Shown here in pieces: positions 629 through 16,548 of a stretch of DNA of 48,900 nucleotides; the first letter of the stretch is position 1, and each line of letters starts with the position of its first letter. The notes under the pieces were generated by a model. The model made no database searches. It was not told where the DNA came from and saw nothing but the letters and a program-made list of their open reading frames with translations. This DNA is from Candidatus Acidiferrales bacterium (GTDB lineage Bacteria; Acidobacteriota; Terriglobia; Acidiferrales; UBA7541). The stretch covers positions 1 through 48,900 of the forward strand of contig JASHQB010000306.1 of assembly GCA_030037775.1 (NCBI GenBank), written 5' to 3'. A program made the translations under genes and the position numbers.

Positions 629-2587
629 TTACGAGGATTGGCCCATCAGGAGCTTCAGATTCGCTGCGTTGAATGCCAGTTTGCCGTCCTGTATATACCG
701 CTTCTGAAGGGCGTCGTGGAAGGCTTCAAAGGCCGCAGCCTGCTTCTCTTCGAGGATTTGCTTCTGCAATGCGTCCTTGGCCTTCGCAAAATCGTCGGGA
801 TTGACCGCCTGTTTCGACTTGACCTGATACACGACCCAGTTCCCGCCAAGCAGGGCCGGGCCGCCGGTCTGGCCCACGTTCATAACGAATGCGTCTTCCA
901 ACTCCTTCGCCGGGCCGACGTCGACCACTTGGCTTGTCCGCGTGATGGGATCCGTTGTCTTGAGGTCCAAACCAAGGGATTTGGCGGCTTTGTCAAATGC
1001 CATGCCGCTTTTCACGTCCTTGGCCAGCTCCTCAGCCTTCTGTTCAGCGAGATCCTGCGCCTTCTCCTTACGGTAGTCGGCGAGCACGCGGTCACGAACC
1101 TCAGCCAGAGTTCCCTGGTGGCCGGCGACGATCTTGCCGACCGAGATGATCACGTAGCCACGGTCAATCGAGATCGGCTGGCTCAGCTCTTCCGGATGCA
1201 AAGAAAAAAGAGCTTCTTGCAGCGCCGGCTCCGCTCCCAGATCGCCCACCGCGTCGGTCACACTCACCAAAGGTGTCTCGCCAGTTTGCAGGTTGAACTG
1301 TTTGGAGATGCCATCGATGCTCTGCCGATTCGACTGACGTACCACAGCAGCAAGCTTGTCGGAAATGTCGCCCTGCTCAGCGTTGAGCCTTTCCTGTGTC
1401 AAGGTGTTGACGATCGAATCCTTTACTTCGTCCAGGCTCTTGGTGTGGGCGTTCTCTTTGTCCAAAACTTTGATGATGTCAAAGCTGTACGGCGTCTGCA
1501 CAACGTCCGAAATAGCGTCTTTCGGAAGGCTGAAGGCTGCCTTTTCGAACGCCGGGGCAGTCTGGCCAGCAACGATCCAGCCAATATCGCCGCCTTTCGT
1601 CTTGGTATTGGTATCCTCGGAATACTTTTTCGCCAGATCCGCAAAGTTCGTACCGTGCTTGGCTTGATCATCCACCTTTTGCGCTTGTTGTTTGACCAAT
1701 GCCACTTCTGCATCGGTTTTCCCGAGCGTGTTGAAAACGATGTGCGCAACATCCACACGGTTTTCGACCTTATAGTCATCCAGATGCTGCTGGTAATAGG
1801 CCTGAACGTCGGCATCGCTGATCTTTATGCTCTGCTTCAGTTGGTTCAGGTCCAGCAAGGCGTATTTTGCCGAGCGCTTCTCGGGAACTTGGTATTTCGA
1901 CTCATTCTTCGCGAAGTAGGTGGAAAGCTCTGCATCCGTGGGGGTAATGGACGACTCAAGGTCCGATGGTTTGACCTCCGCGTAGGTCAGCTGAACCTTT
2001 TCGTTCTCGTAGCGATAACGCGCTTCGACTTCCTGCGGCGTGACGCTGATACCGTCCGTCACCAGGTACTTGAACTTATCCGTTAACACGTCGTCGCGAA
2101 CGTAGTCCTCAAACTCCGGCACGGACATGCCCGTGCGTATTTGCACTTCCTGGGCGTAGCGCTCCGCGCCTACCCATACGCCACCCGGGAACGCGGTGGG
2201 AAGCACTTGCTTGATGCGCAGCGTAATTTCGTCGGGAGTCACCTGCATGCCGAGGCGGTCCGCTTCCATCTGGAGCAGGCGCTGGAAGATCATTTGGTCG
2301 AGCACCTGACGCATGTACAGGCCCTGCATGACTTGAGGAACGTTTTGCCCGCGAGTCTGCTGAGCAAACTTCTGGCGCACGTCGATGACGCTGATACTTT
2401 CTCCGCCGACGGTTGCCACTGCATCCGGGCTTCCCGTGCTGCTGCCGCCGATGCCTCCGACCGGGGCCATGGTTAACACCATCGCGCCGCAGATGAGGAC
2501 GAGCACGCCTCCCAAGAAAATTTTGACGGCGGTCTTGCTCTGGCTCAGATTCTTTAACAAGTGTGTTTGCGCCTCACTGGTAAACAA
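629..2587 (-). CDS. SurA/PpiD-like membrane-anchored peptidylprolyl isomerase (parvulin type)
   Basis: 652 aa; single N-terminal TM segment, SurA-N-like region and parvulin-like segment (VAHIVFNTLGKTDAE...FADLAKKYSEDTNTKTKGGDIGWIVAGQTAPAFEKAAFSL). Confidence 0.88.
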   Translation of the reverse strand: MFTSEAQTHLLKNLSQSKTAVKIFLGGVLVLICGAMVLTMAPVGGIGGSSTGSPDAVATVGGESISVIDVRQKFAQQTRGQNVPQVMQGLYMRQVLDQMIFQRLLQMEADRLGMQVTPDEITLRIKQVLPTAFPGGVWVGAERYAQEVQIRTGMSVPEFEDYVRDDVLTDKFKYLVTDGISVTPQEVEARYRYENEKVQLTYAEVKPSDLESSITPTDAELSTYFAKNESKYQVPEKRSAKYALLDLNQLKQSIKISDADVQAYYQQHLDDYKVENRVDVAHIVFNTLGKTDAEVALVKQQAQKVDDQAKHGTNFADLAKKYSEDTNTKTKGGDIGWIVAGQTAPAFEKAAFSLPKDAISDVVQTPYSFDIIKVLDKENAHTKSLDEVKDSIVNTLTQERLNAEQGDISDKLAAVVRQSNRQSIDGISKQFNLQTGETPLVSVTDAVGDLGAEPALQEALFSLHPEELSQPISIDRGYVIISVGKIVAGHQGTLAEVRDRVLADYRKEKAQDLAEQKAEELAKDVKSGMAFDKAAKSLGLDLKTTDPITRTSQVVDVGPAKELEDAFVMNVGQTGGPALLGGNWVVYQVKSKQAVNPDDFAKAKDALQKQILEEKQAAAFEAFHDALQKRYIQDGKLAFNAANLKLLMGQSS

Positions 2588-2663
2588 CCGATTATAGAAG
2601 ACCGCCGCGCGCGACTCAACTTGAATCGATGCGCGAGAACCGCGCGGTGACGCCGCGGCATAT

Positions 2664-2692
2664 CCTTGACAGCCGTCCAGCGCCGCGGTATG
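2664..2692 (+). promoter_or_regulatory. sigma70-type promoter of TPR paralog 1 (TTGACA-N17-TATGTT)
   Basis: TTGACA at 2664-2669, 17-nt spacer, TATGTT at 2687-2692, about 50 nt before the TTG start at 2744. Confidence 0.6.
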
Positions 2693-2743
2693 TTCCGGTT
2701 AACAACGGTGTAGTCAGAGTAGGCCTTTTCCGCAGAGGGTAAG

Positions 2744-4696
2744 TTGAAATCGAAGTTCATCACCCTCGTCGCAGTCGCGTTGGGCGTCCTTGGTATTCCG
2801 TCTCTCGCCTTCGCACAAGGTGGAGCTCCGCCAATCCCCAGTACTCTAGGTCATCAAGGTTCGGCAGGAAATTCTCCCGTGGGAACTTCCGAAACAGGTT
2901 GGATTAGCGTTTATCTCCGGAGCGAAAGCGAGCTGCCGATTTCTGCGATACCGCAGATGACCCTTACCTCCCTGGATGACGTCCCGATTCCTCAATTTCC
3001 ACGCCTGGACGGCAAAGCCTGGATCTTCTCTGGCCTCCCGATAGGCACGTCCTACGAACTCGACGTGAAGGTCGATGGCTTTCAGCCAGTCCATGAGACT
3101 GTGGACATCCCAGACATGGAATACGGCACGGCCAATGTTGTTATCACGCTCAGAGCCATCGACGAACAGCTGACCTTTCATCCTCCGACCGGGCAGTTCA
3201 TGCTCGCGCCTCGAGTGCAGAAAGAGGTTCAGCAGGGCCTGCGCGATTTGAGCTCGAACAAGATCGCTTCGGCGCAGAAACACTTCCAGAAAGCGATCGT
3301 GATGGCTCCCGGCAATCCGTACGTGAACTACGTGACGGGCATGAGCTACGTTCTCGCAAAGCAGGAGGCGAAAGCCCAGCCTTATCTGGAGGAATCTGTC
3401 TCCTTGGATCCGAATGAAGCATCTTCGCTGCTTGCGCTCGGGACCTTGCGTTTGGACCAGGGGAATTATGCTGGCGCCGTTGATCTGTTGAGCAAGGCGG
3501 TGAAGCTGGAGCCTTCTTCGTGGAAGTCGCAGTGGCTGCTAGCGGATGCCTGCCTGAAGCAACGCGATTTTCCCCAGGCTCGGGAGCACGCGGAAGAGGC
3601 CCTTGCCGCAGGCAAGGAGAAGGCCGATCGTGTGAGACTGGTTCTTGCCGAAGCCGTGGCGTCCATGGGCGACCGCGCGGGCGCCCTAGCGACGTTGGAT
3701 CGTTTTCTATCCGACCATCCAAACGATCCAGACGCTTCGAAGTTTCGCGCTTGGCTGACCAGCCGGCCGGAAACTTCCCCAACGATTGAAAACGCTGCCG
3801 TCAAACAGGTATCGGCTCCCGAGGCCGCGGTCCCGCAGATCGAGCCTATCGCCGTTGCCGCTCCTGCTCCGCAGCCAACCGCGGACCTTCCACCAAACCC
3901 GGATTGGGCACCTCCAGACATCGATGCCGAAAGGCCGGTCATCGTCTCAGGGGCGTCGTGCTCTTTGCCGAAAGTTCTTAAAGCCGGGGCGAAGAATGCT
4001 ACCCGGCTAGTGACTGACCTGCAAAAATTCTCCGCGACCGAGGAGTATCAGACCGTCGAAATCAAGAGAGATGCGAGCCTGCAAAGACCGGCTTCGCGGA
4101 CGTTCAACTACATGGTTTTTATCGAGCATCCCAGCGCGAAAATCCTTCAAGTCAATGAATATCGCGATCAGGGTGTGACAGCTCAAGATATGCCCGGTGA
4201 GCTCGCCGACATGGGCGCTCCCGGTCTGGCGCTCGCGTTTCATCCGCTGCTGCAAGGCGATTTCACATGGAGTTGCGAAGGAGCCGGACGGTGGCAAGAC
4301 AAACCGGCGTGGATTGTACGGTTCGAGCAGCGCAGTGACCGGCCGAATTATCTCGCCGTTTTCCGGGATGGGCCAAATTCATATCCATTGCCGTTAAAAG
4401 GCCGCGCCTGGATTTCCGAGAGTGGCGGTGAAGTGATGCACCTCGAAACGGACCTGGTGAAGCCAGTGGCCGAGATCAAGCTGGAACGCGAGCATTTGGT
4501 TATCGACTATGAAGCTGTATCTTTCCCCAAGCGCAAAGTAACCTTGTGGCTCCCGGAAAATGTGGACTCGTATTTTCAATATCGCGGGCACTATCTGCAT
4601 CAGTTCCACCACTTCAGCAATTTCAAGCTTTTCTGGACCGGCGCTGCAGAGAAAATCGGCCAGCCCAAAGGAGCAACCGACAACAGCAGCGATTAG
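2744..4696 (+). CDS. exported TPR-repeat protein with carboxypeptidase-regulatory-like N-domain and conserved C-terminal domain (paralog 1 of 3)
   Basis: 650 aa, TTG start with AGAGGGT upstream; signal peptide MKSKFITLVAVALGVLGIPSLAFAQ; TPR repeats (AQKHFQKAIVMAPGNPYVNYVTGMSYV); C-terminal ...KVTLWLPENVDSYFQYRGHYLHQFHHFSNFKLFW. Confidence 0.88.
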   Translation: MKSKFITLVAVALGVLGIPSLAFAQGGAPPIPSTLGHQGSAGNSPVGTSETGWISVYLRSESELPISAIPQMTLTSLDDVPIPQFPRLDGKAWIFSGLPIGTSYELDVKVDGFQPVHETVDIPDMEYGTANVVITLRAIDEQLTFHPPTGQFMLAPRVQKEVQQGLRDLSSNKIASAQKHFQKAIVMAPGNPYVNYVTGMSYVLAKQEAKAQPYLEESVSLDPNEASSLLALGTLRLDQGNYAGAVDLLSKAVKLEPSSWKSQWLLADACLKQRDFPQAREHAEEALAAGKEKADRVRLVLAEAVASMGDRAGALATLDRFLSDHPNDPDASKFRAWLTSRPETSPTIENAAVKQVSAPEAAVPQIEPIAVAAPAPQPTADLPPNPDWAPPDIDAERPVIVSGASCSLPKVLKAGAKNATRLVTDLQKFSATEEYQTVEIKRDASLQRPASRTFNYMVFIEHPSAKILQVNEYRDQGVTAQDMPGELADMGAPGLALAFHPLLQGDFTWSCEGAGRWQDKPAWIVRFEQRSDRPNYLAVFRDGPNSYPLPLKGRAWISESGGEVMHLETDLVKPVAEIKLEREHLVIDYEAVSFPKRKVTLWLPENVDSYFQYRGHYLHQFHHFSNFKLFWTGAAEKIGQPKGATDNSSD

Positions 4697-4767
4697 TTCG
4701 GGCTGAGGTTCAGTCTTGCATCAGCCGTTCACCTCTGTACCACCCTCTTTTCGGTCAGTTAACGAGA

Positions 4768-4797
4768 TTGACAGCCAGCGAGCCTTGAGGCTAACGT
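4768..4797 (+). promoter_or_regulatory. putative promoter of TPR paralog 2 (TTGACA-N18-TAACGT)
   Basis: TTGACA 4768-4773, TAACGT 4792-4797; same placement relative to the next CDS as for paralogs 1 and 3. Confidence 0.45.
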
Positions 4798-4863
4798 AGG
4801 CGCGCCGATAGGTCGCTGCGTTCTCGGTCGGACAATGGGAAGGGGCCTGCAACCGAAAGCGAG

Positions 4864-6738
4864 ATGAAAACCAGACTTCTAATCCCTTTTGTCGGTACGC
4901 TGCTTTTGGTGGGCGCCGCACGCAGTGCCAACGCACGACAGCTTACGGACCTCGCGGCGAGGAATGTGGCAGTTGACATCAGCCATAGCGGCAACATAGC
5001 GGTCTACGTCCGAACCGAAGACGGGGAACCGCTGTCTTCCCCTCCGAACCTGACTCTTTTCGCGATCTCCAGATTCATGCCCACACCCAAGGCGCAGAAG
5101 GGCGACGGGGATGTTTGGATTTTCCCGAACCTCTTGATCGGAGACATCTACGAGGTCCAGGTGCAGGCACCCGGATACCACACCGAGCTCAGGGCCGTGA
5201 CCGTACCCGACTCCGTCAGCGCCTCGGCAAGCATAATTGTCTTCATGCGGAACCCCAGCGATGAACTGGCTTTTCATCCTCCATCGGGCCAGTTTGTGCT
5301 GGCGCCCGAAGCCGAAAAGGAAGCGCAAAAAGGATCGGCGGATCTGGACTCCGGCAAAATCGCGTCGGCGCAAAAACATCTAAAGAAGGCGCTCGAGATG
5401 GCTCCCGGAAATCCCTATGTGAACTATCTGATGGGCATGCGCTACCTTCTGAACGGGGAGCTGCCCGCAGCCAAGCCATATTTGGAGAAATCCGTTTCGA
5501 CTGATCCCCGGCAGGTTTCGGCTCTGGTGGCGCTCGGCAGCCTCCGCTTCCGGCAGGGAGATTATGCTGGAGCGATTCAGGTGCTCACACCGGCGGAGCG
5601 ACTAGACGGCTCGAAGTGGAGAGTGCATTCCATGCTCGCCGGTTCGTATCTCAAGCAAAAAGATTTCCTAGACGCCCGCGAGCAAGCAGAGAAGGCGCTG
5701 GCCCAAGGCGGCGGCCAGGCTCAGCGCGATCAGTTGGTGCTGGGCGAAGCGCTCGCGGGACTGGGCCGCGTCGACGAGGCGATCCATGCGCTGGAAGCCT
5801 TCATGAAACAGTTTCCCCGCGACAGCAGCGATCCGGCCATTCGCGCCTGGATTCCGGACCTGAAAAAGCCGCAGCCGTCGATGTTGCCGCCGGCCGCAAT
5901 TGAGATCCCGAGCGCCCCAACTCTAGTGGATTTACCTCCGAAGGAGAACTGGGCCCCGCCGGACATCGACGCCCAAAAACCACTCATCATCTCTGGCGCG
6001 TCGTGCTCTTTGCCGAAAGTTCTTAACGCCGCGGCGAAGAATGCCGCGCAGTTGGTGACTGACCTCGAGAAGTTCTCCTCGACCGAAGAGTATCAGACCG
6101 TCGAAATCAAACAGAACGAGAGCCTTGAGACGCCCGCATCGCGCAAGTTCAATTACATGGTTTTCATCGAGCATCCGAGCGCGCAAATCATTCAGGTAAA
6201 TGAGTTCCGCGACCAGGGTGTGACGGCCAAAGAAATGCCCGGCGAGCTGGCCGACATGGGTGCTCCCGGTCTGGTGCTGGCGTTCCATCCGCTTCTTCAA
6301 GATGACTTTACCTGGAGTTGCGAAGGCCTGAGCGAGTGGCGGGACGAACCCGCCTGGCTGGTGCGTTTCGAGCAGCGTCCTGATCGACCGAACCGGCTCC
6401 TGGAGTTCGAGTCCCCCATGGGCGCATATCCGCTGCCGCTGAAAGGCCTTGCCTGGGTATCGGAAAACAGCGGACAAGTCATCCACATGGAGACCGACTT
6501 AGCGAAACCAATCCCCGAGATTAAACTGCAACGCGAGCATTTCGTGATCGACTACAAATCAATCGCTTTCCCGAAGACCAAAGTGACATTGTGGCTGCCG
6601 GAAAGCGTGGACGTCTACTTCCAATATCGCGGGCACTACCTGCATCACTACCATCACTTCAGCAATTTCAAGCTTTTCTCCACCAGCGCCACGCAGAAAA
6701 TCGGCCAGCCGAAGGAAGCGAAGAACGACAACCATTAG
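4864..6738 (+). CDS. exported TPR-repeat protein, paralog 2 of 3
   Basis: 624 aa; signal peptide; same domain order as 2744-4696; near-identical blocks including SGASCSLPKVLNAAAKNAAQLVTDLEKFSSTEEYQTVEIK and LWLPESVDVYFQYRGHYLHHYHHFSNFKLF. Confidence 0.88.
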   Translation: MKTRLLIPFVGTLLLVGAARSANARQLTDLAARNVAVDISHSGNIAVYVRTEDGEPLSSPPNLTLFAISRFMPTPKAQKGDGDVWIFPNLLIGDIYEVQVQAPGYHTELRAVTVPDSVSASASIIVFMRNPSDELAFHPPSGQFVLAPEAEKEAQKGSADLDSGKIASAQKHLKKALEMAPGNPYVNYLMGMRYLLNGELPAAKPYLEKSVSTDPRQVSALVALGSLRFRQGDYAGAIQVLTPAERLDGSKWRVHSMLAGSYLKQKDFLDAREQAEKALAQGGGQAQRDQLVLGEALAGLGRVDEAIHALEAFMKQFPRDSSDPAIRAWIPDLKKPQPSMLPPAAIEIPSAPTLVDLPPKENWAPPDIDAQKPLIISGASCSLPKVLNAAAKNAAQLVTDLEKFSSTEEYQTVEIKQNESLETPASRKFNYMVFIEHPSAQIIQVNEFRDQGVTAKEMPGELADMGAPGLVLAFHPLLQDDFTWSCEGLSEWRDEPAWLVRFEQRPDRPNRLLEFESPMGAYPLPLKGLAWVSENSGQVIHMETDLAKPIPEIKLQREHFVIDYKSIAFPKTKVTLWLPESVDVYFQYRGHYLHHYHHFSNFKLFSTSATQKIGQPKEAKNDNH

Positions 6739-6820
6739 TTCAGTCTGAACTGCCTAGCGTTGTGTACGCTCCTGCCTGCGGTTCGTTTCTGGCTTTGCTC
6801 TCCTTTCCGCCACCACGCGA

Positions 6821-6849
6821 TTGACACGGTAGCGCCTTTCCCGTAAGGT
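6821..6849 (+). promoter_or_regulatory. sigma70-type promoter of TPR paralog 3 (TTGACA-N17-TAAGGT)
   Basis: TTGACA 6821-6826, 17-nt spacer, TAAGGT 6844-6849, just upstream of the CDS at 6868. Confidence 0.55.
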
Positions 6850-6867
6850 TAACCAGCGCTGCATGAC

Positions 6868-8841
6868 TTGAGAGTGATTCCGATGGTGCGATTTTTCCCA
6901 AGTTTTACTTTGACATCAAAAGTTGCCAGATTTGCCGCCATTCTATTCGTGCTTCTTTGCTTCGCGACCTACGCGCACGCCCAAATTCCGAGCCACGTCA
7001 GTCCCGGTACATCACTGTCACCCGGCGGCCCGCAAATGGGCACGATCACTGTCTATATTCGGAGTGACCGAGGGGAGCGACTTTCCGTAATACCGACTCT
7101 CTCGCTCTCTTCGACCAGCCGGGGTTCGATGCCAGGTTTCGCTCAGGGAAACAACGAGCAGGGTTGGGTATTCTCGGATGTTCAACAGGGGGATGAATAC
7201 GAAGTGGAAGTGAAGGCCGACGGGTACGAGACCACGCGCCAGGCGGTAATGCTCGTGGCCGGGAATGCCAACATCATCGTCTTTTTGAAACCCGTCGACG
7301 AGCAGCTGCAATTCCATCCTCCTGCTGGGCAATTCGTTTTGGCGCCCCGCGCGCAAAAGGAAGTCGAAAAGGGACTGAACGATCTTCGCTCCAGCAGAAT
7401 CCCCTCGGCACAAAAGCATTTCGAGAAAGCTCTGGCGATGGCGCCGGGGAATCCCTACGTCAACTATGTAATGGGCGTGAGCTATTTGATCGCAAAGCAA
7501 TTGCCGGAGGCCCGGCCTTATCTGGAGAAGTCCGTCTCGATCGATCCAAAGGATCCTGCTTCGCTCCTTGCGCTGGGTACTTTGCGTTTTCAATCGGCGG
7601 ACTACACTAGCGCCATACAAACCTTAAATCAGGATGTTCAGCTCGATCCTTCCTCCTGGAAGGCGGAATGGATGCTGGCGGATTCCTATCTGCGCCAGCA
7701 CGACTACGAGCAAGCGCGCAGCCATGCCGAGAAAGCGCTCGCCAACGGAAAACAAAATGCCACACCGGTGCAACTTGTCTTAGGCCAAGCGCTCGCTGGC
7801 CTAGGTGACAGAGGGGGCGCCGTGATGGCGCTGCAGACCTACCTGGCCGTTTACCCGAGCGATCCCAACGGTGCCAAGATTCAAAGCTATATCGTGAGGT
7901 TGCAGCAGCCCATCTCGACGATGGGAACGGGGGCTCCTGCACCCGCCGCCAAGGGCTCCTCTGTGAGCATTCCTTCTGCCCGGTCTGCAAGTGCGACCAT
8001 CCCTGCACCGGCACCGCCTGTCGAGCTTCCACCGAAGGAAAACTGGGCGCCTGCGGATATCGACGCGGAGAAGCCATTCGTGATCTCCGGAGCCGCGTGC
8101 CCTGTGGCCAAGGTTCTCGACCAGGCTGGAAAAAACACCGTGCAACTTGTGACCGATCTGCAAGAGTTCACTGCAACCGAAGAGTATGAGTCTGTCGAGG
8201 TCAAACGCGATGAGCGCTTGGAAACGCCCATCACGCGAAACTTTAGCTACCTGGTTTATATCGAGACGCCGCGCCCGCGACTGATTGAAGTGAAGGAGAT
8301 TCGCAATAACAATCTCAGTCCGGCCGACATGCCCGGGCGCCTTGCCGATAATGGCGCGCCTGGATTGGTGCTGGCGTTCCACCCCATCTATCGGGACGAT
8401 TTCTCCTGGCAATGCGAGGGGCTTGGGGAATGGAACGAGCAGCCGGCCTGGCTCGTGCACTTCGAGCAGCGCAGCGACCGCCCCACAAGTCTTCTCGCCG
8501 CGTTCGATACGCCTTCCGAGGAGTTCGCCCTGCCGCTGAAGGGCCGGGCTTGGATTTCCACCAAGACCGGCCAAGTGGTGCGGCTGGAGGCCGACTTGGT
8601 GCGTCCGGTCGAGCCGCTCGGTTTGAAGCGGCAACATTTCGTCATCGAATATGCGCCCGTTAGCTTCCGTGCGCACAAAGTCACTCTTTGGCTGCCGGAA
8701 AGCGTAGATGTGTATATTCAGTTTCAGGGGCACTATCTGCACCACCAACACCGCTTCAGCAATTTCCAACTCTTCTGGGTGGGTACGTCACAAAAGATCG
8801 AAGCGCCCAAGGAGCCCGCAACTGTGAAACAAAAAGAATAG
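6868..8841 (+). CDS. exported TPR-repeat protein, paralog 3 of 3
   Basis: 657 aa from TTG (ATG alternative at 6883); same architecture; C-terminal LWLPESVDVYIQFQGHYLHHQHRFSNFQLFW. Confidence 0.87.
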   Translation: MRVIPMVRFFPSFTLTSKVARFAAILFVLLCFATYAHAQIPSHVSPGTSLSPGGPQMGTITVYIRSDRGERLSVIPTLSLSSTSRGSMPGFAQGNNEQGWVFSDVQQGDEYEVEVKADGYETTRQAVMLVAGNANIIVFLKPVDEQLQFHPPAGQFVLAPRAQKEVEKGLNDLRSSRIPSAQKHFEKALAMAPGNPYVNYVMGVSYLIAKQLPEARPYLEKSVSIDPKDPASLLALGTLRFQSADYTSAIQTLNQDVQLDPSSWKAEWMLADSYLRQHDYEQARSHAEKALANGKQNATPVQLVLGQALAGLGDRGGAVMALQTYLAVYPSDPNGAKIQSYIVRLQQPISTMGTGAPAPAAKGSSVSIPSARSASATIPAPAPPVELPPKENWAPADIDAEKPFVISGAACPVAKVLDQAGKNTVQLVTDLQEFTATEEYESVEVKRDERLETPITRNFSYLVYIETPRPRLIEVKEIRNNNLSPADMPGRLADNGAPGLVLAFHPIYRDDFSWQCEGLGEWNEQPAWLVHFEQRSDRPTSLLAAFDTPSEEFALPLKGRAWISTKTGQVVRLEADLVRPVEPLGLKRQHFVIEYAPVSFRAHKVTLWLPESVDVYIQFQGHYLHHQHRFSNFQLFWVGTSQKIEAPKEPATVKQKE

Positions 8842-8844
8842 TCG

Positions 8845-10203
8845 ATGACCTGCTCTTCGCGGCGACTTGCGCAGTTTTTCCCGCTTTCAACAGCATTTTT
8901 TCTGCTACTTGTATTCTTCGCTCCGCGCGTTTGTGCACAAAAACCTGATCCGGAGCTTCTCGCGTACATACGGACAATCCGCGCCATCGACAACCATTCG
9001 CACCCGCCGGCCCTGGCAATCAACGGCCAGCCCGACGACGAATACGATGCTCTGCCATGCGCTCCGCTCGAGCCGACCGATGCCCCGATGACCAGCCGCC
9101 CGGAGAATCCGCAGTTCCTGGCGGCGTGGAAGGCTCTCTACGGTTACGAATATTCCGACATGAGTGCGGCGCACGTGCGCGAGCTTCTGGCTGCCAAAGA
9201 GCAGGTCAAAAAAGAGCAGGGCGACAACTACCCGAACTGGGTTCTCGACCACCTGGGTATCGAGGTCGAGCTGGCTAATCGTGAAGCCATGGGTCCAGGC
9301 CTTCGACCACCGCGGTTCCGTTGGGTGCCCTTCGACGATGCCCTACTTTTCCCCCTCAACAATTCAGCGCTCGCCTCTGAGACGCCTGATCGCAAATTTT
9401 TCTTCGACCGCGAAGAGCTGCTACTACAACGCTACATGAGGAAGCTCGGTGTAGCCAAGTTGCCCGCCACTCTCGATGAATACTTGTCGCAGGTCGTTAC
9501 CGCGACCCTCGAGGATCAGAAAAACAATGGCGCCGTGGCCGTTAAGTTCGAGGCCGCCTACCTTCGCGCGCTCGATTTCGAGCCTGCCGATGCGCCAGTG
9601 GCGGCGCAGGCGTATGCGGACTACATCCATGGCGGCATTCCCGCCAAAGCCACCTACACCACATTGCAGAATTACATTTTTCACCACATCGCCGAGGAAG
9701 CTGGGCGCCTGGGCATGCCCGTTCACTTTCACACTGGGTTCGGTTGCGGCGGCTATTTCAAGATGGCCGGCGCGGATCCCTTGCTGCTCGAATCCGCTTT
9801 GGACGAGACATCCCTGCGCGGAACAAAATTCGTACTGCTCCATGGTGGAGCGGGGCCATTCTCAAAATCCGTTGCGGCGCTTCTGGTGAAGCCGAATGTT
9901 TACACCGATTTTTCCGAGCAGACCTGGCTGCTGCCCACGCGCGAACTGAGCAAGAACATCCGCTACTGGCTCGAATGGTTTCCTGAAAAAGTGATGTTCG
10001 GCACGGACCTTTCGCCGGGAACTCCGGAGATTGATTGGGAAGAAATTGGCTGGCAGACGGCTGAATCCGGCCGTGAAGCCCTGGCCATCGCGCTTACAGG
10101 GATGATAGACGACAACGAAATCACGCGCGCCCGGGCACGCGAAATCGCGCGCATGGTGCTGCGCGGCAATGCCCTGAAGCTCTACGGCTGGCCGGACCGC
10201 TGA
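8845..10203 (+). CDS. exported metal-dependent amidohydrolase family protein
   Basis: 452 aa; signal peptide; metal-site motifs NHSHPP, VAVKFE, VHFHTG, LLHGGAG, FGTDLSPGTP. Confidence 0.82.
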   Translation: MTCSSRRLAQFFPLSTAFFLLLVFFAPRVCAQKPDPELLAYIRTIRAIDNHSHPPALAINGQPDDEYDALPCAPLEPTDAPMTSRPENPQFLAAWKALYGYEYSDMSAAHVRELLAAKEQVKKEQGDNYPNWVLDHLGIEVELANREAMGPGLRPPRFRWVPFDDALLFPLNNSALASETPDRKFFFDREELLLQRYMRKLGVAKLPATLDEYLSQVVTATLEDQKNNGAVAVKFEAAYLRALDFEPADAPVAAQAYADYIHGGIPAKATYTTLQNYIFHHIAEEAGRLGMPVHFHTGFGCGGYFKMAGADPLLLESALDETSLRGTKFVLLHGGAGPFSKSVAALLVKPNVYTDFSEQTWLLPTRELSKNIRYWLEWFPEKVMFGTDLSPGTPEIDWEEIGWQTAESGREALAIALTGMIDDNEITRARAREIARMVLRGNALKLYGWPDR

Positions 10204-11378
10204 AGCGCAGCGGGGGAAAGCTCCCGAGGCGAAGTGAATCCACTGAGGGCCATCGACAAATCAAAATCCGCCAGCAAGTTCAGCATCGCGTCGCGCACAC
10301 CAGCCTCACCCGCCACCGCCAATCCCCAAATGTAAAGCCGCGCCACGAGCACAGCGCGCGCACCCAGCGCCAGCGCCTTCATGATATCCGCGCCGCGGCG
10401 TACGCCACTATCGAAGAGCACCGGGATTTTTCCGTTCACTGCTTTCACTACGCCGGGAAGCGCATCGAGCGCCGCGATTGCTCCGTCGACCTGCCTACCG
10501 CCATGATTCGAAACAATCACACCCTCGACGCCGCAATCCACGGCGCGGGCCGCATCATCGCCGTGCAGAATCCCTTTGAGAAGAATGGGCAGTCTGGTGT
10601 GTTGTCGCAAGAATGCCAGATCATTCCAAGTAAGCGTAGTATTCGTGAAAATGCTGGCCCACAGCCGCACCGCCTCGACTGGGTCTTTCTCGGGGGGCTC
10701 GCGCAGCGCGCTGCGGAAAACGGCATCCGTCAGGTAATTGGAAAGCCCTTCCGCCAATAGAAAGGGCAAATAGCCGTGCTGCAAATCCCGCTCGCGCCAT
10801 CCGAGCATCGATGTGTCGAGCGTCACCACCAGCGCGGTGTAACCCGCCTTCTCGGCCCGCTGCAGCATACTCGCGGTCAATTCCGGATTCTTCCCCCAGT
10901 ACAGTTGAAACCAGCGCGGCGCCGGGCCCATCGTCTGCGCCACTTTTTCGATAGGCTGCGAAGACACCGTGCTTAAGACAAACGGCAGCCCCAGCGACGC
11001 GGCCGCGCGTCCCGTGGCCAATTCTGCTTCGGCGTGGACAATCCCCTGTACTCCCACCGGCCCCAGCAAAACCGGCGCCGGCAATTTGGCGCCCAGCAGC
11101 TCGATACTCATATCCGTCACGGAGACATTCCGCAGCATACGCGGCACGATGCGCCAGCGATGAAACGCCTGCAGATTGGCGCGCATCGTGTCTTCGCCGC
11201 CCGCGCCGCCGGCCACGTAGTCGTAGGCGCGCGGATCGAGCGCTTCTTTCGCCTTTTGCTCCAGCAGCGCGAGTGAAGCGGGAATCGACAGCTTCTTCGC
11301 AGCCACGCCAAGCTGGTAAATCTCCAGCTCGCGCGCGAGCCCTGGATTCAACGCCGGATTCACTTTTGTTGGTTCCAT
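10182..11378 (-). CDS. FMN-dependent alpha-hydroxy-acid oxidizing protein (lactate oxidase/LldD-like)
   Basis: 398 aa; AFHRWRIVPRMLRNVSVTDMS, GVIVSNHGGRQVDGAIAALDALP, PVLFDSGVRRGADIMKALALGARAVLVARLYIWGLA. Confidence 0.9.
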   Translation of the reverse strand: MEPTKVNPALNPGLARELEIYQLGVAAKKLSIPASLALLEQKAKEALDPRAYDYVAGGAGGEDTMRANLQAFHRWRIVPRMLRNVSVTDMSIELLGAKLPAPVLLGPVGVQGIVHAEAELATGRAAASLGLPFVLSTVSSQPIEKVAQTMGPAPRWFQLYWGKNPELTASMLQRAEKAGYTALVVTLDTSMLGWRERDLQHGYLPFLLAEGLSNYLTDAVFRSALREPPEKDPVEAVRLWASIFTNTTLTWNDLAFLRQHTRLPILLKGILHGDDAARAVDCGVEGVIVSNHGGRQVDGAIAALDALPGVVKAVNGKIPVLFDSGVRRGADIMKALALGARAVLVARLYIWGLAVAGEAGVRDAMLNLLADFDLSMALSGFTSPRELSPAALQRSGQP

Positions 11379-11417
11379 GCCGTGGACATTCTCGCAGAAC
11401 TGACGCCCACGCGCCGC

Positions 11418-11852
11418 CTATTTTGCATAGGGATGGCCAGTCAAAATCGTAAAGGAGCGGTAGATTTGCTCGGCGAGCAGGACGCGAGCCAACTCATGCG
11501 ACATCGTCAAAGGCGACAGGGAGATCGCCTGATCTGCGCGCCGTCGCAACTCTTCCGGAAAACCTTCAGGGCCGCCGCACAAGAAAATCAGTTCACGAAT
11601 CCCGCGGTCGCGCAGGGCGCCGAGCCACCTGGCGAATTGCGCGGACGTGAACTGCTTCCCACCGGCATCCAGCAGCACGGCCGTCGCGCCGGGGGGAAGC
11701 TTCACTTTCCGCAGCGCGGCCTCACTGGTCTCGCGCAGCTCCGTCGTCTCCACCTCTGCGTACGGGCGGATGCGCGCGAGATATTCGTCGACGAGAGCGC
11801 GAACTTCCGGGCGCCGCGTGCGCGCGAACATGACCAGCCGCACTTTCATCAT
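11418..11852 (-). CDS. rlmH: 23S rRNA (pseudouridine1915-N3)-methyltransferase RlmH
   Basis: 144 aa; LLDAGGKQFTSAQFARWLGALRDRGIRELIFLCGGPEGFPEELRRRADQAISLSPLTMSHELARVLLAEQIYRSFTILTGHPYAK. Confidence 0.93.
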   Translation of the reverse strand: MMKVRLVMFARTRRPEVRALVDEYLARIRPYAEVETTELRETSEAALRKVKLPPGATAVLLDAGGKQFTSAQFARWLGALRDRGIRELIFLCGGPEGFPEELRRRADQAISLSPLTMSHELARVLLAEQIYRSFTILTGHPYAK

Positions 11853-11879
11853 GTGTGAGGGATGCGAAACGCCCAGTTC

Positions 11880-12818
11880 TTAGACCAGGCCGTATTTCTT
11901 TCTTTTTTCGAGCAGCGTCTTGCGGCTGATGCCGAGAATTTCGGCCGCACGCGCTATTTTATAGTGGGTCGCTTCGAGCGTCGCACGCACCGCTTCCTTT
12001 TCCATTTCTCCGAGTGACTGCAAGCGGCCGTGCGACGGCGCATCGGACGCCACCTGAAGGGCCGAGGGGAAGTCCTCGCGCTTCAAAGTCGCACCCGTCG
12101 CAAAAACGAGCGCCCGTTCGATCACGTTCTTCAGCTCGCGCACATTCCCCGGCCAGTCGTAGAGTTCCAACGCCTGCATGGCGCCGCCGTCGATGGTGGC
12201 GCCAGCATGCCCGTGAACAGGCGCAAGCCGTTTCACGAAGTGCTCGGCGAGAGGGCGAATATCCTGGGTCCGTTCGCGCAAAGGAGGAACCTTGATTACC
12301 AGCACGTTCAGCCGGAAGTACAAATCCTCGCGAAAATAGCCGCCGCGCACGGCGCGTTCCAAATCCGCATTGGTCAGCGCGATCAAGCGCGCGTTCATCT
12401 CCAGTGTTTCGGTGCCGCCCAGCCGCTCAAATTTCCGTTCTTCCAGAACACGCAACAATTTCGATTGCACCGCAGGCGCAAGAGCGACCACCTCATCGAG
12501 GACAATCGTACCGTCCTCAGCCAACTCCATCCGCCCCGGCTTGCGCGCTTCCGCTCCCGTGAAGGCGCCACGCTCGTGCCCGAAGAGCTCCGATTCGACC
12601 AGCTCCGAGGGGAGGCTGGCGCAGTCAATCTTGAGGTAGGGCGCGTCGCGCCGTGGGCCGGCTTCGTGAATCCATCTTGCCAGTTGGTCCTTTCCGGTGC
12701 CGCTTTCGCCGGTGATCAGAACCGTGGTGGATGTGTCCGCAACTTTGGCGGCAATTTCCAGGACGTGCTGAGACGCTGGATCCTCCGTCACCCATTCGAG
12801 ACGCGCCTTTGAATTCAT
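11880..12818 (-). CDS. sigma54-interacting AAA+ transcriptional activator with Fis-type HTH, no N-terminal sensory domain
   Basis: Start placed at MNSKARLEW (12818), whose ATG overlaps the rsfS stop (ATGA). Walker A GESGTGKDQ, GAFTGA loop, Walker B TIVLDEV, C-terminal HTH AAEILGISRKTLLEKRKKYGL. The ORF-track extension to 13076 overlaps rsfS in another frame. Confidence 0.9.
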   Translation of the reverse strand: MNSKARLEWVTEDPASQHVLEIAAKVADTSTTVLITGESGTGKDQLARWIHEAGPRRDAPYLKIDCASLPSELVESELFGHERGAFTGAEARKPGRMELAEDGTIVLDEVVALAPAVQSKLLRVLEERKFERLGGTETLEMNARLIALTNADLERAVRGGYFREDLYFRLNVLVIKVPPLRERTQDIRPLAEHFVKRLAPVHGHAGATIDGGAMQALELYDWPGNVRELKNVIERALVFATGATLKREDFPSALQVASDAPSHGRLQSLGEMEKEAVRATLEATHYKIARAAEILGISRKTLLEKRKKYGLV

Positions 12819-13201
12819 GATCCACCACCGGGGGCTGCCGATCGGCTGGTTTCGGGAACATCGAAACGCTTGGCGGCGCGCCACAGTCGCTCGATGTCGT
12901 AAAAGGCACGCGCTTTCTCGCTGAAAACGTGGACCACGAAGCTTCCGTAATCCAGCAACAACCATTCTGTTCCGGCACGCCCCTCGCGATGCGGCAGGCG
13001 CAGCCCCTCCGCGCGGAGCTTTTGCTCGACTTCGTCCCCGATGGCCTCGATCTGCCTCACACTTTCCGCCGAGCAAATGACAAAGTACTCAGAGAACGCC
13101 CCCAATCCTGTCAGCGACAAGACGGTCACCGCCGTCGCTTTCTTGCTGTGAGCGGCGTCCACTGCCCAGCGTACGTTTTTGGGTAAGGAATCCAGGTTCA
13201 C
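12815..13201 (-). CDS. rsfS: ribosome silencing factor RsfS
   Basis: 128 aa, GTG start; ATAVTVLSLTGLGAFSEYFVICSAESVRQIEAIGDEVEQKL...EWLLLDYGSFVVHVFSEKARAFYDIERLW. Confidence 0.93.
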   Translation of the reverse strand: MNLDSLPKNVRWAVDAAHSKKATAVTVLSLTGLGAFSEYFVICSAESVRQIEAIGDEVEQKLRAEGLRLPHREGRAGTEWLLLDYGSFVVHVFSEKARAFYDIERLWRAAKRFDVPETSRSAAPGGGS

Positions 13202-13872
13202 CGGTAAAGGGCCTGCCTATGAATGTAGTCTTCCACGGCCGGCGGCACAAGAGCACGAATCGAAGCTCCACGCTCGCAGCGGCAGCGGATATCTGTCGAG
13301 GACACATTGGACGCCACGCTGGTCAGCAGATGCACCGTCGATTCTCTGAGCGCGATGGCGTTGCGGCCACGCGCTTTCTGCTCGCTGAGCAGCCGTGGCG
13401 GAATTATTCGCCGCAGCGCTTCCAAACGAATACCAGGGCGGCTGGCAACTATGAAATCACAGGAATCGAGCAAAGCCTCGTAGCTCCACCAAATCGGAAT
13501 TTCCAAAAACGAGTCCGCGCCCAGAATGAAATAAATCTTATCGCTGGCATGTTGTTCACGGAAACGCCGCACCGTATCGACGGAATAAAAAACCTGCGAG
13601 GCGTCCGCCTCATCAGGGGCCTCCGCAAGTGATGGCACAAATCGCGCTTTTCCTGCGCAAGCCAGCGCCACCATGGCGTAACGGTGGGCGAAGGCCGCCA
13701 GCTCCTGGCGTTTCTTGTGAGGAGGCCGGGAAGAAGGCACAAAGTAAATCTCATCGAGCTGAAAGCGCCGCGCGGCTGCTCCGGCCACAATTAAATGGCC
13801 GCAGTGAATCGGATCGAATGTGCCGCCAAAAATTGCGATGGCGCGCGCGCCCTTGGCAGCACGTTTGCTCAA
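13198..13872 (-). CDS. nadD: nicotinate-nucleotide adenylyltransferase
   Basis: 224 aa, TTG start; [26 protein letters not shown], and C-terminal SSTDIR. Confidence 0.93.
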
Positions 13873-15011
13873 CGCTCCTCCGAACGCACACCCGCGCTTT
13901 CCGCGCTTGCCTGACTGGATGCCGGCATACCTCTGTCCAGATCAGGATCTTCCAGCCGCGGCGCCGCTTGCCGCGGGAGCTGCCCCAGCGCATCGGCCAT
14001 CGCTCTTACCAGAGCTTGCACGCCCTCGCCGGTAGCCGAGGAAATCGCGAAGAAGGGGAGCCCGCGCGCGGCGGCAAAATCGCGAAGCCGCTCGACGCGC
14101 TCACGGTTGGTCGTCGCGTCGAGCTTTGTGGCCACCACGAACAGCGGCTTCTTCATAAGCTCTTCGCTGAACGCGCGCAATTCGCCCTGAATGATCTCAA
14201 AATCGCGGATCGGGTCGCGCGGGTTCCCATCGCTGGTGTCAACCAGCTGGGCTATCAAACGCGTGCGGTCGATGTGGCGCAAGAAGCGAATGCCTAGCCC
14301 CGCGCCTTCGTGCGCCCCTTCGATCAAGCCCGGCAGGTCGGCGACTACAAACGTGCGCCCAGTGCCGGGCGGAGCATCGGGGTCTGCGGAAACCACACCC
14401 AAATGCGGTTCAAGCGTCGTGAAGGGATAATCCGCGATCTTCGGCTTCGCGGCCGAAATGCGCGAAATGAAAGTCGATTTGCCTGCGTTCGGAAATCCCA
14501 CGAGTCCCACATCGGCCAGTAGTCGCAGCTCCAAACGCAGCCGGCGCTCCTCTCCCGGTTGGCCATCCTCATGCTCCCGCGGAGCCTGATGCCACGGCTT
14601 TGTGAAATGCGAATTTCCCCGCCCGCCCTGGCCGCCGCGCGCCACACGGAACTGCTGCCCCGGTTCGCTGAAATCGAAAAGCTTCTCGCCGCTTTCTTCG
14701 TCGAAAACCAGCGTCCCAACCGGCACAGTCAGCACCGTGTTGACGCCCGACCGGCCGTGACAGTTGGAACCTTCGCCGTGACGGCCACGGTCGGCGCGAA
14801 ACTCGCGGTTATACCGATAGCGCAGAAGGGTATTCTCCTGCTCCGTAGACTGAAGAATGATGTCGCCACCATTGCCTCCGTCGCCCCCCGAGGGTCCGCC
14901 TCGTGGCACATATTTCTCGCGACGGAAGGCGACGCAGCCGTTCCCGCCGTCGCCGCCCTTGATCCAAATCTTCGCCTCGTCGACAAACACGTCTGCACCT
15001 TCAGCTGTCAA
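13869..15011 (-). CDS. obgE: GTPase Obg/CgtA
   Basis: 380 aa; glycine-rich Obg fold ([34 protein letters not shown]), G1 [26 protein letters not shown]. Confidence 0.95.
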
Positions 15012-15080
15012 GGAGAGAATACGATACCGCTCGGTAGAAATACAAAAGAAGCGCGAATAGACAGCGCACGGAAAAGTCGC

Positions 15081-15377
15081 TTATTGCTTGGCAGGCGCTT
15101 CGGCGGTCTTGCCCGCTTTCTCTTCGGCGGGCAGAACGCTGATGTAGCGGCCTTTCTGACCCTTGTCCTCAAACAGCACTACGCCCGTGATACATGCAAA
15201 AAGCGTGTCGTCCTTAGCGCGGCCTACGTTTTTGCCGGGCTTGTACCGCGTGCCCCGTTGGCGGACCAAAATGCTTCCGCCATTCACCAGCTGGCCGCCG
15301 AAGCGCTTGATTCCCAGCCGCTGCCCGTGGGAATCCCGTCCATTAACCGACGAACCGCCGCCCTTTTTGTGTGCCAT
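15081..15377 (-). CDS. rpmA: 50S ribosomal protein L27
   Basis: [61 protein letters not shown]. Confidence 0.96.
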
Positions 15378-15386
15378 AGAAAGCCT

Positions 15387-15701
15387 CTAGTCCACCTTAA
15401 TGTCGCTGACTTCGACTGCTGTGTAAGCCTGCCGATGGCCGCGCGTGATCTTGTATTGTCCGCCGCGCTTGTATTTCAGCACCAAACGCTTCGCCGCTCG
15501 CCCGTGCGAGATGATTTTGCCCGTCACTTTGGCCTTGGAGGAACTGGCGCCGGCAAGCAACTCCTTGTTGTCATCGTGGACCGCGACCACTTCGTCGAAA
15601 GTCACCTTTCCGCCGACCTTGCCATCGAGCTTTTCGACGCGAATCGTCTCTCCGGGCGCAACGCGATACTGCTTTCCACCACTGCGAATCACGGCGTACA
15701 T
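15387..15701 (-). CDS. rplU: 50S ribosomal protein L21
   Basis: MYAVIRSGGKQYRVAPGETIRVEKLDG...; start moved to 15701 from the longer track ORF (15788). Confidence 0.95.
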   Translation of the reverse strand: MYAVIRSGGKQYRVAPGETIRVEKLDGKVGGKVTFDEVVAVHDDNKELLAGASSSKAKVTGKIISHGRAAKRLVLKYKRGGQYKITRGHRQAYTAVEVSDIKVD

Positions 15702-15816
15702 ACAGCCTCCTGAAGCAAAAGCGAATCCACGATTATACCGGCCATTAACATGTTTCGTCAATTGAGAGACGAGAGCGCGGCGAAGCAAACAGTCAACTGG
15801 ATTTCAAGGTGAGCGC

Positions 15817-16548
15817 TCAGGCCTGAGCCGTGCGGTATCTTTCGCCTAACGCTATTTCCCGGACGATCGCATCCATGGCCTCTACAGGGTCCGGCGCGGC
15901 GGTGATTGGCCGCCCCACCACGAGATAATCAGCACCCCACCGAGTTGCATTGGACGGCGTGGCAACTTGCATCTGATCGTCCTGCCGGCCGCGCTTCTTC
16001 GGCTTGTTCGGATCCACAGGGCGAATCCCCGGAACCAAGATTTTCATTTCGCTGCCGAGGGCCTTTCGCAGCGCCTGAACGTGTTCGCCTGCGCTGACGA
16101 CTCCGTGCATCCCCGCGGTCTGCGCCATGGCGGCGAGTGCGGCCACCCTCGCGCTCACAGGTCCCGTCAGTCCTACCCGAACCAGTTCGGTGTCGTCCAA
16201 ACTCGTCAGCACGGTGACGCCTAGGAGCATTGGCGGCCGCTTGGCGCCATCCACTGCAGCCCTCGCGGCCCGTAGCATCGCCAACCCGCCCGTCGTATGG
16301 ACGGTCATCATCCGGACACCCGGAAGCCTTACGGCGGCCTCTACCGCCCCCGCCACGGTATTGGGGATATCGCAGAATTTCAGGTCAAGGAAAATGCCGG
16401 GAACCAGCTTGGCGATTCGCCGTACTGCATCTGGTCCTTCAGCGGTGAACAACTGGCTGCCGATTTTGACAAAACCAACTCTGTCGCGAAGCCGGCGGAT
16501 GAAGCGAATCGATTGGTTTACGTCAGGGAAGTCCAGTGCTACGATCAG
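15817..16548 (-). CDS. pyrF: orotidine-5'-phosphate decarboxylase, predicted CTG start
   Basis: Track ORF begins at an internal TTG (16452). The in-frame upstream extension (CTG)IVALDFPDVNQSIRFIRRLRDRVGFVKIGSQLFTAEGPDAV restores the N-terminal beta-strand; DLKFCDIPNT holds the catalytic DxKxxD; GRPITAAPDP at the C-terminus. Confidence 0.85.
   Translation of the reverse strand: MIVALDFPDVNQSIRFIRRLRDRVGFVKIGSQLFTAEGPDAVRRIAKLVPGIFLDLKFCDIPNTVAGAVEAAVRLPGVRMMTVHTTGGLAMLRAARAAVDGAKRPPMLLGVTVLTSLDDTELVRVGLTGPVSARVAALAAMAQTAGMHGVVSAGEHVQALRKALGSEMKILVPGIRPVDPNKPKKRGRQDDQMQVATPSNATRWGADYLVVGRPITAAPDPVEAMDAIVREIALGERYRTAQA

Follow-up and report, generated by a model that had tools for sequence, protein, structure and literature searches.

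Three consecutive genes were analysed in a 48,900-nucleotide (nt) stretch of DNA (hereafter the window) from the Candidatus Acidiferrales bacterium contig JASHQB010000306.1. These genes appear to be diverged members of an exported Acidobacteriota protein family whose C-terminal domain has a predicted LolA-type fold, and they may code for client-specific carriers or chaperones of the envelope. We give this reading a probability of about 45%. It rests on the layout and predicted structure of the proteins, on the divergence between the copies, and on the genes found around homologues of the C-terminal domain. We used a genus sample of five genomes, named G000 (the window genome) and G001 to G004. 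Named relatives based on sequence are the Acidobacteria metagenome-assembled genome (MAG) clean266 (DAHUXN01) and a Candidatus Acidiferrales MAG (JASHRL01).

Layout of the three proteins and predicted fold of their C-terminal domain

As described in the initial annotation, the three open reading frames are paralogous, lie on the same strand and encode exported proteins (Table 1). Over an end-to-end alignment, they share 49-57% amino-acid identity pairwise. Their common layout (signal peptide, beta-sandwich, tetratricopeptide repeat (TPR) array, disordered linker and C-terminal domain of 260 amino acids (aa)) was borne out by the alignment, by Pfam TPR families and by an AlphaFold model of copy 3. 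This full-length model presents a signal helix, a seven-stranded beta-sandwich (residues 50-135), eleven TPR helices (155-341), a disordered linker (about 348-380) and a half-barrel (408-631). Its overall predicted template modelling score (pTM) is low (0.48), so the domains are not fixed relative to one another. Several Pfam TPR families (PF14559, PF13432, PF07719 and others) exceed the curated cut-off in all three copies, the NCBIfam matches of the full proteins are TPR-type models, and Foldseek with the whole copy 3 model returned TPR proteins only, among the matches listed. The carboxypeptidase-regulatory-like domain announced earlier falls on a beta-sandwich in the copy 3 model, but its sequence support is weak: PF13620 stays below its cut-off in copy 3 (E=0.008, 16.9 bits vs. 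32.3) and the Pfam scan gave no match in copies 1 and 2. The signal peptides, read by eye, end in AFA-Q, ANA-R and AHA-Q in copies 1, 2 and 3, respectively, and have no lipobox; soluble periplasmic proteins are therefore expected from the sequence.

The C-terminal domain is the best conserved part of these proteins and holds their invariant residues. Modelled by AlphaFold with 25 homologues (mean predicted local distance difference test (pLDDT) 87, pTM 0.84), it would consist of a long helix and long antiparallel strands, with a helical plug inserted after strand 3 and before strand 4, followed by more long strands. The best Foldseek match of this model in the PDB was LolA3 of Porphyromonas gingivalis (E 7e-7, probability 1.0), the others including the LolA-superfamily protein NE2245 (Nitrosomonas), a DUF1329 protein, RseB, MucB, LolB and LprG. 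The predicted LolA/LolB/RseB half-barrel fold (CATH 2.50.20) is thus solid at the superfamily level. The initial annotation had recognized a shared domain here and had missed this fold. It was right that no described family covers the domain, which is unnamed in Pfam and NCBIfam and has no sequence match in the PDB. Among 25 aligned C-terminal domains, no convincing Pfam match was obtained (four families hit one member each, with a best E of 0.0045), and none at all to the LolA family PF03548. Because separate PF03548 LolA-type genes are present elsewhere in the genome, the C-terminal domain does not represent the housekeeping LolA.

Among 70 distinct C-terminal sequences, E44, Y67 and E83 are invariant, and R85, F110, H111 and P112 are nearly so. 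Cys17 and Cys122 are both present in 57 of these sequences, both missing in 10 and never found singly, which suggests a putative disulfide, the 70 sequences being related by descent so that this count is not independent evidence. According to a 2019 paper on EPDR1, the bacterial structures of the LolA fold then known had no disulfides (PMC6363788). EPDR1 is itself a LolA-fold protein with disulfides, but it is eukaryotic and forms a homodimer.

The closest structural comparison is with LolA and LolB (PF03548; PDB 9tp6, 3buu, 8orn), which share with the present family export, a probable periplasmic location and the predicted half-barrel with its helical plug. However, this family shows no sequence similarity to them, is fused behind a beta-sandwich and a TPR array, occurs in multiple copies and possesses two co-conserved cysteines. 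The mycobacterial glycolipid carriers LprG and LppX belong to the same fold class, but they are lipoproteins, whereas the proteins described here have TPR arrays and no lipobox. In a literature search, no paper united Acidobacteria, tetratricopeptide and carboxypeptidase regulatory-like, and the papers that combine LolA, tetratricopeptide and Acidobacteria seem unrelated, judging by their titles and abstracts.

Distribution of the domain and its possible role in the envelope

The C-terminal domain was detected in 171 of 250 sampled genomes of the class and in 66 of 247 genomes of a phylum-wide sample, where matches outside the class are mostly weak. For a domain present in roughly two thirds of the genomes sampled in this class, an abundant and poorly understood soil lineage, a predicted fold and a biochemical role that can be tested are now proposed. 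No relative of the family was found on viral contigs.

The domain also exists as stand-alone homologues of about 270 aa, which match its profile over the full domain (probability 100, E 3e-53) and in which the E, E-x-R and H-P positions recur. We analysed 20 stand-alone loci (L158-L177), each picked for holding a domain match, and a common set of neighbours was found in 16 to 18 of them. This operon, with genes that often overlap or nearly abut, encodes one or two c-type cytochromes (10 to 51 CxxCH motifs), a protein of ~570 aa without Pfam family that resembles an outer-membrane barrel by eye, a membrane protein of ~310 aa with conserved H108, H122, H282 and H296 at dihaem-b spacing, and a 4Fe-4S/FAD oxidoreductase in which two 4Fe-4S motifs accompany a pyridine-nucleotide-disulfide oxidoreductase domain. 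It is possibly an undescribed trans-outer-membrane electron conduit. Since the stand-alone homologues sit in this conserved multihaem operon, the domain is tied to envelope assembly, and it is linked to an outer-membrane barrel that is itself without family. The operon was observed in several Acidobacteriota families (L159 (G236:C1:573000-588000), L160, L163, L164, L166, L167, L174 and others). Its cytochrome-b-like gene is present near full length in about 50 of the 250 class genomes, and no full-length copy was found in the window's genus.

Given this operon context and the fold, the best-supported role is that of a carrier or chaperone for the hydrophobic part of an outer-membrane client. 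The half-barrel cavity would hold the hydrophobic or lipidic part of a client bound for the outer membrane, the TPR array would dock a partner at the membrane or the assembly machinery, and the long flexible linker would let the two act some way apart. The pairings between TPR arrays and carrier domains would be reshuffled by tandem duplication and by gene conversion of single modules. The periplasmic location, ligand binding, docking and outer-membrane clients are inferred, and we hold this role at slightly less than even odds. A broader version, in which the LolA-fold domain defines an undescribed client-specific carrier system whose stand-alone form assembles the multihaem conduit while the TPR-fused members serve other outer-membrane clients, seems rather doubtful.

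Several results weigh against a carrier role. The TM-scores of the C-terminal model to its PDB matches are modest (<0.5), no PDB sequence fell below E 0.2 with the domain profile, and hhalign gave a probability <1% between this profile and the genome's own PF03548 LolA-type proteins. When the neighbours of 53 loci were clustered, no gene was common to the full-length forms beyond common ones, so that no client is named. In addition, LolA-fold proteins include a sensor (RseB) and an enzyme (VioE), and the fold by itself does not assign a function. A structural or a catalytic role would suit the conserved polar cluster just as well.

This cluster is what would make the domain an enzyme or a small-ligand protein like VioE, acting on an envelope metabolite through its E/E/R/H residues. 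Five polar or aromatic residues are nearly invariant and several of them recur in the stand-alone family, but there is no known catalytic motif and no enzyme neighbour is common to the loci; we find this quite improbable. It is also unlikely that the proteins are envelope sensors like RseB and MucB (PF03888), the half-barrel binding a stress ligand (mislocalised lipoprotein or lipopolysaccharide) and the TPR array releasing an anti-sigma factor or another partner. Both proteins are among the Foldseek matches and share the fold class of their large domain with the family, and a PpiD/SurA-type foldase adjoins family members in two genomes. However, TM-scores to RseB are about 0.25, the second RseB domain is not present here, and neither the family nor any other protein found in the genome matches PF03888. 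Moreover, no anti-sigma or sigma gene was seen adjacent, and the PpiD linkage is missing in G002, G003 and G004.

Finally, the proteins might be structural or surface adaptors, with the beta-sandwich and TPR array acting as an outer-membrane scaffold and the half-barrel being no more than a membrane-contact or dimerisation module. Beta-sandwich and TPR halves do exist alone (G000:C67 and G001:C55), which implies that they work without the carrier domain, and the CarboxypepD_reg/OMP_b-brl_4 outer-membrane proteins, of which Acidobacteriota have dozens, are possible partners (37 matched stretches in G000). These barrels form a neighbour cluster at 6 sampled loci, but this adjacency looks close to the expectation from their abundance (roughly 14 to 56 matched stretches per genome), and we left the link unproven. 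As the invariant residues lie in the C-terminal domain, an adaptor role seems a rather poor fit, and we retain the carrier or chaperone role as the preferred reading.

Divergence of the copies and exchange of modules

Identical DNA stretches in copies 1 and 2 had been taken as pointing to a recent duplication or to gene conversion. Such stretches exist (Table 1), with a third run of 23 nt, all three within the C-terminal domain, and no identical run of at least 20 nt was found with copy 3. They are beyond chance, but they belong to a domain in which copies 1 and 2 are 73% identical over 260 aa, against 52% in the TPR array and 33% in the beta-sandwich, and they do not indicate that the whole gene was duplicated recently. 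In the C-terminal domain, copy 3 has 55-57% identity with each of the two others.

Copies 1 and 2 show a synonymous divergence (dS) of about 1.0-1.45 in their C-terminal domains and of 1.5-1.9 over the N-terminal modules; comparisons with copy 3 give values from 1.3 to saturated. For comparison, dS between orthologues of G002 and G004 is about 1.0-1.35. The copies are therefore old, because the divergence between them is like or above that of orthologues between species of the genus. A recent duplication is ruled out by a dS of about 1.0 in the most similar segment and saturation elsewhere, and the copies belong to different clades whose orthologues are spread over sister species. All copies are under constraint, and for the orthologues L042 and L043 non-synonymous divergence (dN) is well below dS (0.04-0.12 vs. 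1.0 or more). Open frames, retained invariant residues and this low dN rule out decay of the copies.

Gene conversion, by contrast with recent duplication, was upheld but limited to modules. The N-terminal tree places copy 1 with the TPR-only gene of G000:C67, G001:C22 and a TPR-only gene found in G001, and copy 2 with G002:C375 and G004:C11; a topology that keeps copies 1 and 2 together was rejected on these data (approximately unbiased (AU) test, p 3e-80). In the C-terminal tree, copies 1 and 2, G001:C22 and the G002 and G004 genes form a clade (support 98/97), and imposing this grouping on the N-terminal data was also rejected (AU p 4e-8). As the two trees conflict, the best reading of copy 1 is a chimera whose halves meet in the Pro/Ala linker. 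The TPR-only exported proteins (G000:C67:1490-2533 and G001:C55:44243-45232) resemble the beta-sandwich and TPR half of copy 1 (59-72% identity) but have neither linker nor LolA-fold domain. Between copy 1 and the C67 gene, dS is only 0.15 over residues 241-337 of copy 1, vs. 0.90 in the beta-sandwich and 0.79 in the first TPR half. This segment is about 96% identical, with identical runs up to 49 nt, and indicates a recent local conversion of the second half of the TPR array with an unlinked locus. These results show that recombination acts on exported proteins one module at a time.

The source genome is a MAG (4.19 Mb, 374 contigs, 91% complete, 2.9% contamination), and C67 carries a succinate dehydrogenase-like gene without close relatives in the genus. 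It is nevertheless very improbable that an assembly artefact explains the identity between copies 1 and 2 or that the C67 TPR-only gene is binned contamination. The C67 isoprenyl transferase is 84, 76, 77 and 74% identical to its counterparts in G003, G002, G001 and G004, respectively, vs. 81, 74, 76 and 74% for PpiD. We assign C67 to the window genome because these values match, contamination being judged unlikely on this ground. Moreover, the segment shared with copy 1 is about 96%, not 100%, identical. The succinate dehydrogenase/fumarate reductase-like flavoprotein gene (G000:C67:9884-11614) has a best genus match at 41% identity, and a more usual paralogue lies on C318.

Same-strand tandem pairs were also found in G203 (two arrays), G161, G046 and G167, the triplet of the window being the largest tandem array seen. 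In a tree of 53 sequences, G203:C273 is a supported sister pair and the other pairs are non-sister or unresolved; tandem arrays have therefore arisen more than once.

Genomic neighbourhood of the triplet

The five genomes of the genus contain one to three full-length members each, and no tandem of full-length copies was found among them outside the window. Copy number and synteny, compared between these relatives, make the triplet specific to this genome. In G001, a TPR-only gene lies beside the full-length gene adjoining PpiD. In G003, which PpiD identity makes the nearest relative, the gene immediately after PpiD is the orthologue of window gene 15817-16452, and the triplet and everything up to 15.8 kb are absent from this site. 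A rearrangement end is therefore placed next to PpiD, since positions 2600-15800 are lacking from the G003 site. By eye, this interval appears to include rlmH, rsfS, nadD and obgE genes.

The analysis gave no evidence for the hetero-oligomer of copies 1 to 3 suggested by the initial annotation, and the missing conserved co-occurrence argues against it. The genes are not a conserved set in the genus: the nearest relative has no triplet at this site, the copies of sister species are not in tandem, and each gene of the window has its own TTGACA box.

Table 1. Features of the triplet and of its neighbours, in window coordinates
Feature	Position	Strand	Description or evidence
Copy 1	2744..4696	+	650 aa, TTG start; best read as a mosaic gene (alpha-clade N-terminus, beta-clade C-terminus)
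Copy 2	4864..6738	+	624 aa, ATG start; N-terminus groups with G002:C375 and G004:C11 genes
Copy 3	6868..8841	+	657 aa, TTG start; closest to the full-length gene beside PpiD in G001
Copy 1, Sec signal peptide (AFA|Q), no lipobox	2744..2815	+	Sequence reading; signal helix predicted on copy 3
Copy 1, beta-sandwich (carboxypeptidase-regulatory-like)	2903..3175	+	Alignment; equivalent fold in copy 3; Pfam support weak
Copy 1, TPR array	3212..3754	+	Pfam TPR families; equivalent fold in copy 3
Copy 1, TPR array, second half	3464..3754	+	Recently converted with G000:C67:1490-2533 (dS 0.15; identical runs <=49 nt)
Copy 1, Pro/Ala-rich linker	3755..3910	+	Putative module junction; alignment; disordered in copy 3 model
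Copy 1, predicted C-terminal LolA-fold domain	3911..4693	+	Domain alignment, AlphaFold model, Foldseek
Copy 2, predicted C-terminal LolA-fold domain	5956..6735	+	Domain profile/alignment
Copy 3, predicted C-terminal LolA-fold domain	8050..8838	+	Domain profile/alignment; full-length model
29 nt identical, copy 1 vs. copy 2	3953..3981 = 5998-6026	+	DNA comparison
25 nt identical, copy 1 vs. copy 2	4610..4634 = 6655-6679	+	DNA comparison
PpiD/SurA-type exported peptidyl-prolyl isomerase	629..2587	-	Divergent neighbour; linked to the family in G001, not in G002, G003, G004
Exported amidohydrolase (PF04909)	8845..10203	+	Starts 4 bp downstream of copy 3
Promoter-like site of copy 1 (TTGACA-17-TATGTT)	2666..2694	+	Sequence search

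The TTGACA hexamer was also seen by eye at 4768 (copy 2) and 6821 (copy 3). The three hexamers lie 47-96 bp upstream of the start codons, which suggests a candidate promoter for each copy. The amidohydrolase gene is probably co-transcribed with copy 3 and is not conserved near other family members. Copy 3 also has an alternative ATG start at 6883.

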